A DNA stretch of 25,100 nucleotides, taken from Saccoglossus kowalevskii. Lineage: Eukaryota; Hemichordata; Enteropneusta; Harrimaniidae. The stretch lies in NCBI RefSeq assembly GCF_000003605.2, contig NW_003156234.1, positions 415,932 through 441,031 on the forward strand. The letters run 5' to 3'. The notes under the pieces were generated by a model. The model searched no databases and was not told the origin of the DNA. It saw nothing but the letters and a program-made list of their open reading frames with translations. Shown one piece after another: positions 6,701 to 24,835 of this stretch; positions within the stretch are counted from its first letter, which is position 1, and every line of letters begins with the position of its first letter. The position numbers and the translations under genes are program-made.

Positions 6701-7982
6701 GGGATAAACCAAGGACCACTGATGTCGCTATTAGTTTTCACTTTTAAATCTTTTTATTTCAGCTTATGTTAAATAAAATAGTAATCTTACAATTTGTGAT
6801 AAAAAAAAACATCCATGAAATTCAATATATTAGATTATTGGTGCTGGTACAACATTATTATAATTTCGGTGTAGAGGGGAAACGTTTTCTATATCTCCCA
6901 TACATGATGGCTCCATGGTTTTCTTCCCATAATTATACAATGCTATACAATGCATAAGGTCTCCCCAACGGTCAATATTGTGAAAGTTTAAGGAGAAGTG
7001 TGATTTAGAGACAAGTTTCAACAGGTATGTTTCAACGTAGTTACACCCATTTTCAAATTTTAACTCTCATAAACCACACTGGTGCGCGTATTTTCAGCCA
7101 AAATGGTATTGTATCACGGATACGGATGAGGATGTTTGGGGATTTAGAGATTATAATTGATTGTAGGAGCAAGGGGGATAGTTGGTACAGATTACAGAAA
7201 ATAAAAATACATTTTACGTTTTCACAGAAAATAAAATGGAAAGTTCCATTTAGAATAAAAAATAGCTTTTTACACTTTACAAATAAAGCAAATTCCTGAT
7301 TACATTTTACATTTTTATAATATACTTGATAATTTGTGTTTAAGAATCAAAATTTGAAATTGCGCACGAATTACGGCATTTAATGTGGGAAATGCTTTAC
7401 ACGCTTACAAAAAATAGGATCTTTGTACAAATTACGGACGAATAAAATAGCTGATTACATTTTAGACCTTGCAGATGTCTACGAATTCACGTTTTTTATT
7501 TATTTAAATTACATTATTACGAGAATAAAAACAATTGATTACAGCTTACGAGAATACCCCTTGCCGACCCTCTAAATAGAGCAACATCTGTAAAAGCTCC
7601 ATTTTTCACCAAAGTTACAAACAATTATGGCAAAACATGGATCTAAATTGAATCTGGAGAATTTAAAAAAACAACGACAGGTTTATGGATTCACTTGTAC
7701 TTTGTTATTGAAGAGATATGGGCCAGTCTACCTTAGTTTGAAGATGAGAGGAAAAGTTGAGACAAAGTATAGTTATTTCTAACTATTTGGTGTAAGTGTG
7801 CTCACGTGTATGAAAAAAACATGGGTCTCATGCAATCTAATCGCTTGCTTATATTTGAAGGACATGCAAACTAACTCGTTGTTAACTGTTTGAGTCATAT
7901 GGCAATGAATAGTCATTGAAATTATTATTTCCAAAGGGTCATGAAAATCATCCACGTGTAACTGTTTCGAGTTGCCCTGCTT
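6701..7982. other. Non-coding AT-rich stretch with a decayed repetitive section
   Basis: No gene is seen. From about 7190 to 7560 the phrases GATTACA(TTTTA) and TTACG...AATAAAA recur at irregular spacing (7191, 7297, 7451, 7536). This may be an old tandem repeat or simple AT-rich bias. Small open frames at 6766-7299 read through this biased sequence and show no domain. Confidence 0.35.
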
Positions 7983-8684
7983 ACAGTCGGCAAAGACCTT
8001 GCAAATAAGATTAATCAGACCAATGATCCTTTGAGTTATTCAAGTTCTCCCAAGCCAAATTCATTCTTCCTCCACCAAGTTTGTGAAAATGATATAGAGT
8101 TAGAGCTTAATAGTTTGAACCCAAATAAACCCAGTGGTCATGATCTCCTCTCTCCCCGTCTTCTAAAAGATGCTGCTCCCTACATCAAACAACCATTATG
8201 TCACATTATCAATCTCTCCCTCACTGCAGGTATCTTTCCACACCAACTTAAACTCGCTACTGTTTCCCAATTTACAAAAATTAGAAAGGTTCTCCCTATT
8301 TAGTGAGCAACTATAGACCAATTTCTATATTGCCAATCATTAGCAAAATTATTGAAAAAAAATATTAACAAGCAATTAATTTTATTTCTTGACAAACATA
8401 AAATCATTAATAAATATCAGTATGGCTTCGGAAACAAATATAGTACTAAGCTCGCACTAATTGACATAAACTTTGACCTTGCTAGAACAATTGACGACGG
8501 CAACATAGTTTTTGGTGTATTTCTCGATCTAACTAAAGCCTTTGATACAATCAACCACGAAATCTTACTATTCAAGTTACTCAATTATGGCATCCGTGGT
8601 ACTCCTCTAAATTGGTTTAAAGATTATCTATCTAACCGTAGACAATATGTTCGTGTAGATGGTTATCAAAATTTCAAATTTTGA
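7983..8684 (+). pseudogene. LINE (CR1/L2/Jockey-type) reverse-transcriptase fragment
   Basis: In order the conserved blocks are GKDLANKI and LNSLNPNKPSGHD (7983-8300), [18 protein letters not shown] (8306-8360), YQYGF...ST (about 8417-8453), [13 protein letters not shown] with the motif-A aspartate (8521-8559), and YGIRG...WF...YLSNRRQYV (8587-8655). This is the fingers and proximal palm of a non-LTR reverse transcriptase. A TAG at 8301-8303 and two frame changes, at about 8304 and in the A run at 8354-8361, break it. It is also truncated before the GVPQGS and YADD blocks, with no endonuclease upstream. It is a dead 5'- and 3'-truncated copy and cannot encode an active enzyme. Confidence 0.9.
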
Positions 8685-17339: not shown

Positions 17340-17345
17340 TTTATT
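17340..17345 (-). terminator. Candidate proximal poly(A) signal AATAAA
   Basis: This is the first canonical AATAAA I noticed on the transcribed strand after the BET stop codon, about 565 bases downstream. A variant ATTAAA sits nearer, at 17779-17774. The downstream U/GU content is modest. Confidence 0.25.
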
Positions 17346-17909: not shown

Positions 17910-17975
17910 TCATAACATCTCTTCAAAGTTTGCCATAATGTCACTCTGTCTGTTCATATCAATAGCACCAGCCAT
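17910..17975 (-). CDS. BRD4: BET protein, last coding exon: P-TEFb-interacting motif and stop
   Basis: The exon follows acceptor TTCCACAG and encodes MAGAIDMNRQSDIMANFEEM then Leu and a TGA stop. It aligns residue for residue with the extreme C-terminus of vertebrate BRD4/BRDT long isoforms (IDMNFQSDLLSIFEENLF), the P-TEFb-interacting domain that contacts cyclin T1/CDK9 to release paused RNA polymerase II. Presence of this motif marks a long BET isoform like BRD4 or fly fs(1)h-L, unlike BRD2 and BRD3. The protein ends one residue earlier than the vertebrate form, which adds a Phe. It joins the preceding exon in phase 0 (…RRRREA|MAGA). Confidence 0.93.
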   Translation of the reverse strand: MAGAIDMNRQSDIMANFEEML

Positions 17976-18620: not shown

Positions 18621-18750
18621 AGCTTCCCGTCGGCGCCTTTCTTGTTCTCTCCGCCTCTCTCTTTCCATCTGGGATTTACTTTGTTGTTTCTGTAATTCCT
18701 CTTTTTGTGTGTGTCTAGCCCTTTCTAGCGCATCATCTTCTTCCTTTTCT
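18621..18750 (-). CDS. BRD4: BET protein exon: charged coiled coil ending RRREA
   Basis: The exon lies between acceptor TTTGACAG and donor GTAAGT. One base completes an Arg codon begun in the preceding exon (phase 2), then 43 codons run EKEEDDALERARHTQKEEL onward and end in EQERRRREA. Vertebrate BRD4 has the matching order REDEDALEQARR then REQERRRREA just before the terminal motif. The strongly alternating E/R/K/Q composition predicts a long helix. The glutamine-rich insert seen in mammalian BRD4 between these blocks is much shorter here. Both-strand open frames across the exon are shadows. Confidence 0.93.
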
Positions 18751-19676: not shown

Positions 19677-19768
19677 CTTTGCCTTTCTCGCTCCTGTCGT
19701 ATCCGGTCTCGTTCAACAATTTCACGTTGCTGTCGTCGACTCTCTTCTTGTGTACGTAATGCACGTTC
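19677..19768 (-). CDS. BRD4: BET protein exon: charged coiled coil, middle part
   Basis: The exon lies between acceptor TTGTTTCAG and donor GTAGGT. Thirty codons plus two bases encode ERALRTQEESRRQQREIVER followed by DRIRQERERQR. In vertebrate BRD4 the equivalent stretch reads [24 protein letters not shown]. The start phase is 0 and the end phase is 2, and both match neighbouring exons. It has no Cys, Pro or Gly, consistent with an uninterrupted helix. Confidence 0.92.
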
Positions 19769-20163: not shown

Positions 20164-20310
20164 TCTTTCCTCTTTTTCACGGGCCTGCCTTTGAAACTGT
20201 TTATAGCTTGTACGAGCAGTGGAATGCAGTACAGTGGTGGCACCAGAACTAACATTCACATCAGCTTTGGCAAGGTTGGACCAGGAACCAATGTTACGAA
20301 TCTTGAAGTC
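20164..20310 (-). CDS. BRD4: BET protein exon with the conserved IGSWSNL block
   Basis: The exon lies between acceptor CTCTGTTAG and donor GTGAGT, 49 codons, phase 0 at both ends. It begins DFKIRNIGSWSNLAKAD and ends SYKQFQRQAREKEER. These match the vertebrate BRD4 C-terminal signature DLKIKNMGSWASLVQK and FEQFRRAAREKEER. The region between them is Ser/Thr-rich and variable, as in other BET proteins. This block is among the best-conserved stretches outside the bromodomains and ET domain, and it identifies the gene securely. Confidence 0.95.
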
Positions 20311-21715: not shown

Positions 21716-21798
21716 CTTTTTTGATACAGGATGTACACTCTTTTTCAAATTCTCTCCAATACCTGGTGACGGGACAGCACCAACATTAAAAGAAACGC
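21716..21798 (-). CDS. BRD4: BET protein exon linking the proline-rich and conserved C-terminal parts
   Basis: The exon lies between acceptor ATTATTCCAG and donor GTAAAA. Two bases complete a Gly codon from the preceding exon (phase 1), then 27 codons encode VSFNVGAVPSPGIGENLKKS followed by VHPVSKK in phase 0. Vertebrate BRD4 has a poorly conserved Pro/Lys linker (…EPKTPVAPKK) directly before DLKIKNMGSW, and this exon occupies that place. The sequence itself is not conserved, so the call rests on splice sites, phase and position. Confidence 0.82.
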
Positions 21799-22829: not shown

Positions 22830-24116
22830 CATGTCTTTGTGGTAGCTTATGGACATCAGGTTTCTGTTCAGACTTAGGAGGTTCTGTTTTTGGTGGTGAA
22901 GACCGAGATATCTCTGGAGGGGGTGATGGCGTATTACGATCAAAGGAATTGCTGTCCTCATCACCAACCATAAACTTAACTGCATCAGGCTCATGTGGCG
23001 GAGATGGTAGTTGCGGTGAGTATGCCTTGTCTTCTACTGGGCTAGATTCATTTGAGGGTTGCAAAGCTGGTTGTATGACAGGTTGCCTTGCAGGCTGTGA
23101 CATCTGTTCCATTTCGGCATTTGAAACAAGTTGAGCCACTGCATGCGACATGGCTTGCGTTCTAGGGTGCAGTGCAGGTTGTATCACAGAGTGTGATGTA
23201 GGCTGTGTTACATGATGAGATGTGCGTTGTGACATTGGATGCGACATAAGTTCAGTACCATGTGATGTGGGTTGTGAAATTTGCGACGTTGGCTGTGAAA
23301 TTTGCGACGTTGGCTGGGTAATGTGCGACGTTGGCTGGGTAATGTGCGACGTTGGCTGGGTAATGTGCGACGTTGGCTGGGTAATGTGTGCCGTGGACTG
23401 GGCAATGTGTGGCGTGGACTGGGCAATGTGTGGCGTGGACTGGGCAATGTGTGGCGTGGACTGGGAATTACGAGACGTGGGCTGTGAATTGCGCGAGGTG
23501 GGCTGTGAATTACGAGACGTGGGCTGTGAATTGCGCGAGGTGGGCTGTGAATTGCGAGACGTGGGCTGGGAATTGCGCAAGGTGGGCTGGTCAATATGCG
23601 GTGTTGGCTGTGAATTACGCGACGTGGGCTGGGCAATGTGCGACATTGGTTGCGTAATATGTGGAATGGGTTGTGGAACATGTGAAATAGGTTGCGTAAA
23701 ATGTGATGTAGGTTGTGTTAAATGCTGTGTCGTGTGTGACATGGGTTGTGTAACATGCGACATGGACTGTGAGACCTGGGACGACATTGAAAAAGACATA
23801 GAATCTGATGTTGTCATTTGATGTGGCATGGATTGCATCATTGCTGGTGGCATAGTGTGCATCATAGGATGAGAGATGGGTTGAGTAATAGGTTGTGATA
23901 AAGCTTGCAGCAAAGACTCTGGTATATCTGGTATTGACGGTTGTATAGAATGGTGAGATACTGATTTTGATCCATGCGAGAGCTCTGGCTGATTCACAGG
24001 TTCCTTGATAGGCAGTAATACTGGTGGTGTAGCTAGTTTTGATGATGCTTTTGACTTTGGTGGTGTAACTGATTTCGTTGATCGAGTATGAGACTTGGAA
24101 GGGGTGGTAGTGTGAC
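22830..24116 (-). CDS. BRD4: BET protein large exon: basic S/T-P region, heptad array, acidic proline-rich region
   Basis: The exon lies between acceptor GGAATTTTGCAG and donor GTAAGTATT, 1287 bp, phase 1 at both ends, so skipping it would keep the frame. Order of parts: a basic, proline-directed stretch (KSHTRSTKSVTPPKSKASSK), a leucine-containing island (PDIPESLLQALSQP), Met/His/Gln-rich sequence, the 22-unit heptad array (23718-23257), degenerate heptads, then SSPVEDKAYSPQLPSPPHEP and NTPSPPPEISRSSPPKTEPP, with VKFMVGDEDSN between them. The exon replaces the His/Gln/Pro-rich disordered region of vertebrate BRD4 and is expected to be disordered. The upstream exons carrying the bromodomains and ET domain lie beyond the window. 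Confidence 0.9.
23257..23718 (-). repeat. BRD4: 22 tandem 21-bp units encoding heptapeptides (QPTSHIT type)
   Basis: Units begin every 21 bp from 23257 to 23698 with no indel. In protein order the variants are TQPTSHF, TQPISHV, PQPIPHI, TQPMSHI, AQPTSRN, SQPTPHI, DQPTLRN, five SQPTSRN, SQSTPHI, two AQSTPHI, AQSTAHI, three TQPTSHI, TQPTSQI, SQPTSQI and SQPTSHG. Neighbouring units are identical or nearly so in DNA, including synonymous sites. The outermost units are diverged and merge into shorter or longer relics on both sides (for example TQHL, MSHP, VTQPTSHSV). Because the unit length is a multiple of three and lacks stops, other frames and the plus strand also stay open here. Confidence 0.93.
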
Positions 24117-24284: not shown

Positions 24285-24835
24285 AAGGTCTTTCAGCAGC
24301 AAACATTTTACATGCATAACTGAGATCCGGGTCCGGAATGGTGAAAATGTGCGATTTCAATGCATTTTCGGCCTTAAAGTGGCCGCCATTTGGCTATCGT
24401 TAATGAGATCATGAAACAAATGCACATACATATTTGTGACATGATGTACCTTGTGTGTGTGAAGTTTGAACTCGATCAATCCAAGCATGTCTCAGATACG
24501 GATCCAGAACTGAATTCTTTAAAACAAATTGGCCGCCAGTCGGCCATTTCGAACCCGATCCAAAAAAAAAATGACGTGCATCAAGGTCCTATTATAGTTA
24601 ATGTATGTACCAAATTTGAACAAAATCCGTCCATGCATAACTGAGATCCGGGTCCGGAATGGTGAAAATGTGCGATTTTGATGCATTTTCGGCCTTAAAA
24701 TGGCCGCTATTCGGCTATCGTTAATCGGATCATGAAAAAAATGCATGTGCATATGTCCCATATAATGTGTGATGTATGAGTGAAGTTTGAACTTAATCGG
24801 TCCATGCATGTTCGAGATACAGGTGATCACGGACG
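24285..24835 (+). repeat. Tandem pair of the dispersed repeat with 321-bp period
   Basis: CATGCATAACTGAGATCCGG starts at 24311 and again at 24632. About 120 bp that follow are nearly identical (GTGAAAATGTGCGATTT, GCATTTTCGGCCTTAAA, TTCGGCTATCGTTAAT or TTTGGCTATCGTTAAT). Between them a second, diverged monomer carries the equivalent blocks (GATACGGATCCAGAACTGAA, TTGGCCGCCAGTCGGCCATT, GACGTGCATCAAGGTCC). The structure is therefore an A-B dimer of roughly 160-bp monomers forming a 321-bp higher-order unit. Confidence 0.8.

Follow-up and report, generated by a model that had tools for sequence, protein, structure and literature searches.

The window, a 25,100-nucleotide stretch of contig NW_003156234.1 of Saccoglossus kowalevskii (positions 415,932 to 441,031), carries on its minus strand what appears, from its C-terminus, to be the C-terminal part of a gene of the BRD4/FSH-long type, with a heptapeptide array in one large exon. 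The initial annotation had left the strand of array and gene unstated. Six exons, here called A to F, are predicted from splice consensus and reading frame, and, with AG and GT at their borders, would give one continuous frame down to a stop codon. In window positions, they are:

22830..24116, minus strand: predicted exon A, phase 1-1, 1287 nt, 429 codons, open throughout, acceptor TTTTGCAG, donor GTAAGTAT; contains the array, flanked on either side by degenerate relics, and has an end rich in Pro, Ser and Lys
21716..21798, minus strand: predicted exon B, 83 nt (GT-AG borders and frame continuity)
20164..20310, minus strand: predicted exon C, 147 nt, DFKIRNIGSWSNL...QFQRQAREKEER (GT-AG borders and frame continuity)
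19677..19768, minus strand: predicted exon D, 92 nt, many charged residues (GT-AG borders and frame continuity)
18621..18750, minus strand: predicted exon E, 130 nt, first part of the BRD4_CDT match (GT-AG borders, frame, Pfam match)
17910..17975, minus strand: predicted exon F, last coding exon with the stop codon, end of the BRD4_CDT match, MAGAIDMNRQSDIMANFEEML (GT-AG borders, frame, Pfam match)

The first codon of exon A takes its first base from a further exon upstream, and the AATAAA closest to the stop codon of exon F is at 17345. That a phase 1-1 exon holds the array, as claimed earlier, is borne out by the AG and GT borders, the length of 1287 nt and the open frame, and the exon is presumably used in transcripts. 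In the intron preceding exon A, two direct repeats of 189 nt each, 84% alike and 321 apart, occupy 24311-24820. A tandem repeat with a period of 319 bp at locus L026 (537-1319) is similar by eye, and because of this resemblance the direct repeats may belong to a dispersed family that can also be arranged in tandem.

The array consists of 22 consecutive, gap-free units of 21 nt, in a Q-first register that runs from 23715 to 23254 with Gln at the first position in every unit. Tandem Repeats Finder assigns a period of 21 to 23267-23644 (18.0 copies, 84% matches, 0% indels), and a second period-21 row to 23648-23724 (3.7 copies, no indels). Residue identity at lag 7 is 0.76, compared with 0.126 ± 0.026 and a maximum of 0.23 in 2000 shuffles. 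The regular 22-copy heptad array described previously is thus confirmed, with no indels and an open frame, and the limits given for it (23718-23257) are three bases off the Q-first register. The array and its blocks of related units are located as follows:

23254..23715, minus strand: heptapeptide array, 22 in-register 21-nt units, Q followed mostly by P-T-S-[HR]-[IN]-[ST] (repeat finder and unit alignment)
23275..23316, minus strand: two identical QPTSQIS units (unit alignment)
23317..23379, minus strand: three identical QPTSHIT units (unit alignment)
23401..23463, minus strand: three identical QSTPHIA units, which are three of the four Thr-Pro units (unit alignment)
23464..23589, minus strand: QPTLRNS and five QPTSRNS units, including the pair formed by units 9 and 11 (unit alignment)

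The commonest unit is QPTSRNS (6 copies), followed by QPTSHIT (3), QSTPHIA (3) and QPTSQIS (2), with eight singletons and 16 distinct unit sequences among the 22. QPTSHIT, QPTSRNS and QSTPHIA, which had been taken to make up most of the array, do all occur, but together account for just 12 of the 22 units. After the invariant Gln, position 2 is Pro in 18 units and Ser in 4; position 3 is Thr in 19, Ile in 2 and Met in 1; position 4 is Ser in 15, Pro in 5, and Leu and Ala once each; position 5 is His in 13, Arg in 7 and Gln in 2; position 6 is Ile in 12, Asn in 7 and other residues in 3; and position 7 is Ser in 9, Thr in 7, Ala in 4, and Pro and Asp once each. Tyr, Trp, Lys and Glu are missing altogether from the array, and its charged or ionizable residues are one Asp, seven Arg and 13 His.

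Relics of the repeat had been reported on either side. Words of the form [MTI]SH are enriched in both flanks, with 4 in the downstream flank compared with 0.14 expected (0 of 5000 shuffles), and 3 in the upstream flank compared with 0.53 expected (55 of 5000 shuffles). The upstream flank also has a lag-7 identity of 0.19, reached by 1 of 2000 shuffles, yet its top lag is 4 (0.217), and the downstream flank gives no lag-7 signal (reached by 1833 of 2000 shuffles; top lag 8, 0.201). The relics are therefore seen as words on both sides, but as a seven-residue period at most upstream. Because such words occur in both flanks, the array may be the regular core of an older and wider repeat field.

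The 172 residues obtained by splicing the exons after exon A match the Pfam family BRD4_CDT (PF17105) with an E value of 1.2e-17 and 63.5 bits, compared with a curated cut-off of 27; they thus contain the P-TEFb-interacting C-terminal motif of BRD4/FSH-long proteins. The open frame around exon E scores 23.1 bits on its own, which is under the cut-off. Vertebrate BRD4 presumably has similar sequence in the part that corresponds to exon C (IRNIGSWSNL) and to the end of exon A, which is rich in Pro, Ser and Lys. A PDB search with the C-terminus gave a best E value of 0.049, and Rfam has no match within the window. Upstream of the gene, the contig runs for about 291 kb beyond the window, with 441032-503842 all N and much of 531-571 kb N as well. 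Regular expressions for bromodomain and ET motifs found none in the fetched upstream stretches, which are largely N, apart from one brief ET-like string, at contig position 528434, that was put down to chance. A bromodomain search of the assembly returned 12 matches, all of them on other contigs and, judged by eye, unlike those of BET proteins, and the ET family (PF17035) has no match in the assembly, in a search where masked stretches cannot match and no control genome matched either. Because the upstream contig reads N and no bromodomain or ET exons are seen, the BRD4-type name applies by virtue of the C-terminus. The earlier description as a BRD4-like protein holds for this part, whereas the bromodomains and ET domain may fall in sequence that reads N.

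As in the long isoform of vertebrate BRD4 and in Drosophila FSH-L, the predicted P-TEFb-binding C-terminal domain follows a long low-complexity stretch. To our knowledge, the vertebrate and fly tails are irregular and rich in Gln, Pro, His and Ala at this place, unlike the regular heptad array found here. An excerpt of PMC5133849 describes a C-terminal end of about 40 residues that Brd4, Brdt and FSH have in common in their long forms. The three coiled-coil heptads of human BRD4 (residues 506-527), given in a passage of PMC8578508, are located elsewhere in the protein and are of another kind than the array. Among the matches listed from the open-licence literature, none of the titles and abstract openings describes an array of heptads in the tail of a BET protein. 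A contig of the viral collection (L047, 5001-5474) has 27% identity to the BRD4-type C-terminus over query residues 37-171, which perhaps reflects a charged coiled coil only.

Units 13-15 are identical, as are units 17-19 and units 20-21, and unit 9 recurs unchanged as unit 11 after an intervening unit of another sequence, which corresponds to a step of 42 nt. Because neighbouring units are identical, the array appears to have grown by repeated local duplication. Exon A matches once in the 572-Mb assembly. A protein search of the assembly with the array returned at least 173 other matches at E ≤ 10 (150 of the 1162 candidates scored), and the 14 loci read among them (L003-L016) are all built of other units, so that a copy of a dispersed family can be rejected as the source. 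L010 and L011 overlap, as do L013 and L014, the latter two being one array. A period-21 row of at least seven copies is present at 13 of the 14 loci, and L016 has a period of 42. Some of the 21-bp-period arrays exceed 2 kb (L010, 129.5 copies) and several could code for heptapeptides, while at five of the 14 loci, which represent four distinct arrays, none of the six frames is free of stops. The search favours period 7, and hence proves that other such arrays exist but gives no density. In 94,870 unmasked bases (the window and 12 fetched stretches, three of these wholly N), no other 21-bp-period array was found, and an ordinary genome-wide background of such arrays was set aside on this ground. 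Because unrelated 21-bp arrays do occur elsewhere in the assembly, an ordinary origin can be expected for the present one.

With 21-nt units (a multiple of 3), 0% indels and a position inside the open exon A, the array fits the description of a coding minisatellite. It resembles known coding tandem repeats of disordered regions, as described in parts of PMC2718493, PMC2805694 and PMC9879509, in that expansion in frame gives a probably disordered repeat. Coding repeats of this type are already known, and the array would differ from them in its location in a BRD4-type transcription regulator, beside the P-TEFb-binding motif.

The differences between units spare the protein. Between units, pN/pS in the coding frame is 0.36 (codon-column bootstrap 0.17-0.67), and in the five other frames 0.58-2.01, with intervals that all include 1; the comparisons between units are not independent of each other. 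Column entropy is 1.12 at codon position 3, compared with 0.59 and 0.45 at the other two (one-sided permutation P 0.015). When the entropy test is made phase-blind, P rises to 0.048 for the array, and for L008, one of 13 control loci, it is 0.037. Among 20 stop-free control frames from eight loci, two have a pN/pS interval below 1, both of them from L003 (0.13, 0.0-0.46, and 0.62, 0.26-0.83), and three others lie above 1. A low pN/pS is consequently not unique to this array, and L003 could itself code for protein, or else the pN/pS test is loose. On the plus strand, a frame of 200 residues (23219-23821) is open opposite the array; the codon pattern of the coding strand probably produces it, and it is not taken as a gene.

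A single-sequence AlphaFold2 model of the array has a mean pLDDT of 53.9 and a pTM of 0.13, with 10 of 154 residues above 70, and DSSP gave nothing. The low confidence of this model is weakly consistent with the disordered tail proposed in the initial annotation, and argues, equally weakly, against a folded repeat such as a solenoid. According to passages of PMC8578508, BRD4 and BRDT have long isoforms with a disordered region, and that of BRD4 forms droplets. The same source, in the part available, describes condensates also for the short BRD4 isoform that lacks the long disordered region, so that the tail is not needed for condensates.

Considered as a whole, the locus is best explained, with somewhat better than even confidence, by the expansion in frame of a minisatellite that is under constraint and gives the protein a disordered, multivalent linker ahead of its P-TEFb-binding end. 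Our confidence is slightly lowered because the control frames with low pN/pS and the passage on the short isoform weigh against it. Within the large phase 1-1 exon, which would code for the low-complexity stretch preceding the P-TEFb-binding end, a 21-bp minisatellite would have arisen and multiplied in frame through repeated local tandem duplication. Selection may keep the frame and composition of the units, i.e., open, nearly uncharged and made of Gln, Pro, Ser, Thr and His. The array would then most probably be a multivalent linker, flexible and almost without charge, that keeps the chromatin-reading half at a distance from the P-TEFb-binding end and contributes weak contacts through Gln, His, Ser and Thr within transcription condensates. 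The proposed role in condensates is borrowed from the long isoform of BRD4. A multivalent or condensate scaffold, as put forward in the initial annotation, is a best guess at function.

A possible but less probable explanation is that the array is a neutral passenger, i.e., a 21-bp minisatellite tolerated where nearly any uncharged disordered sequence is allowed, with a copy number that drifts and on which nothing depends. The unrelated 21-bp arrays elsewhere in the assembly, including those with stops in six frames, and the recent duplication implied by identical neighbouring units agree with such a passenger, as do a statement in PMC2718493 that amino-acid repeats concentrate in unstructured regions, and a figure in PMC2805694 of 11-16% of Nematostella proteins with tandem repeats. 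The pN/pS of the array, whose interval lies below 1 in the coding frame and in none of the other five, speaks against neutrality, but selection directed merely against stops and bad residues would be compatible with a passenger. It is very unlikely that the repeat was expanded, collapsed or misjoined in assembly. Identical neighbouring units are easily mis-counted and the adjoining stretch reads N, so the exact copy number may be wrong, but the 16 distinct unit sequences, the relic words on both sides, the intact frame and splice sites and the single match in the assembly do not agree with an artefact.

The remaining explanations concern phosphorylation. With its period of 7, Ser/Thr-rich composition and a PTS core in 13 of 22 units, the array has some likeness to the RNA polymerase II CTD (which shares the period) and the SPT5 CTR, and since a P-TEFb-binding motif is found in the same protein, it could in principle be phosphorylated by BRD4-recruited P-TEFb, as substrate or decoy. 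CTD-like heptads contain Tyr and Ser/Thr-Pro, however, whereas the array has no Tyr, and Ser/Thr-Pro in only 4 of 22 units compared with 8.6 in shuffles (131 of 5000 as low). P-TEFb is specific for Ser/Thr-Pro according to an excerpt of PMC8257543. No sequence relation to the CTD or CTR is apparent, and mimicry of this kind is highly improbable, in agreement with the earlier remark that few units hold a proline-directed Thr and the doubt expressed there about CTD mimicry in the strict sense. If phosphorylation matters at all, the abundance of S/T-Q, the ATM/ATR motif, on which the initial annotation is silent, would instead point to kinases of the ATM/ATR/DNA-PK type, and not to CDK9. The array has 17 such motifs compared with 8.5 ± 2.1 in shuffles (0 of 5000), and in 15 of 22 units the terminal Ser or Thr is followed by Gln. 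The density in exon A reaches 14 per 100 residues, compared with 3 in the 172 residues after the exon, and exceeds the minimum of three in 50-100 residues by which S/T-Q cluster domains are defined in an excerpt of PMC10942620. The junctions would in this case be a multisite substrate for ATM/ATR/DNA-PK-type kinases, and DNA damage would charge the linker and alter BRD4 condensates or P-TEFb delivery. The motif is automatic in any repeat that places Ser or Thr before Gln, and the shuffle test thus measures the register; because the repeat fixes the motif in every copy, the excess is no sign of selection for it, and, compared with cluster domains in general, the putative sites here are a by-product of the repeat register. 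The part of exon A outside the array has 10 S/T-Q compared with 6.0 expected (226 of 5000 shuffles). A Pro at +2 and an Arg at -2 may also make the units poorer substrates of these kinases. Cluster domains are moreover commonplace, with 13.9% of human proteins according to the same excerpt of PMC10942620, and altogether we regard a functional S/T-Q cluster as improbable. More doubtful still is the bolder proposal that this lineage rebuilt the BRD4 tail as a phosphorylation sensor tunable by copy number, in which DNA-damage kinases would heavily phosphorylate an otherwise nearly uncharged, condensate-forming linker at the 15 S/T-Q junctions of 22 and switch P-TEFb delivery, with a sensitivity set by repeat number. 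The four Thr-Pro units lack S/T-Q and the 15 units with a junctional S/T-Q lack Thr-Pro, an exclusion that is a curiosity only, because three of the four Thr-Pro units are copies of one another.

Should the array be expressed and vary in copy number, it would provide a natural length series in a BRD4-type tail, with which it could be tested directly whether the length and regularity of the tail tune transcription condensates or P-TEFb delivery. If the array is neutral, it would instead show how loosely the sequence of such a tail is constrained. Elsewhere in the window, two adjoining open frames are present on the plus strand (7962-8303 and 8307-8684). The second of these matches RVT_1 with an E value of 6.1e-10, and 7962-8684 is probably a LINE-type fragment.
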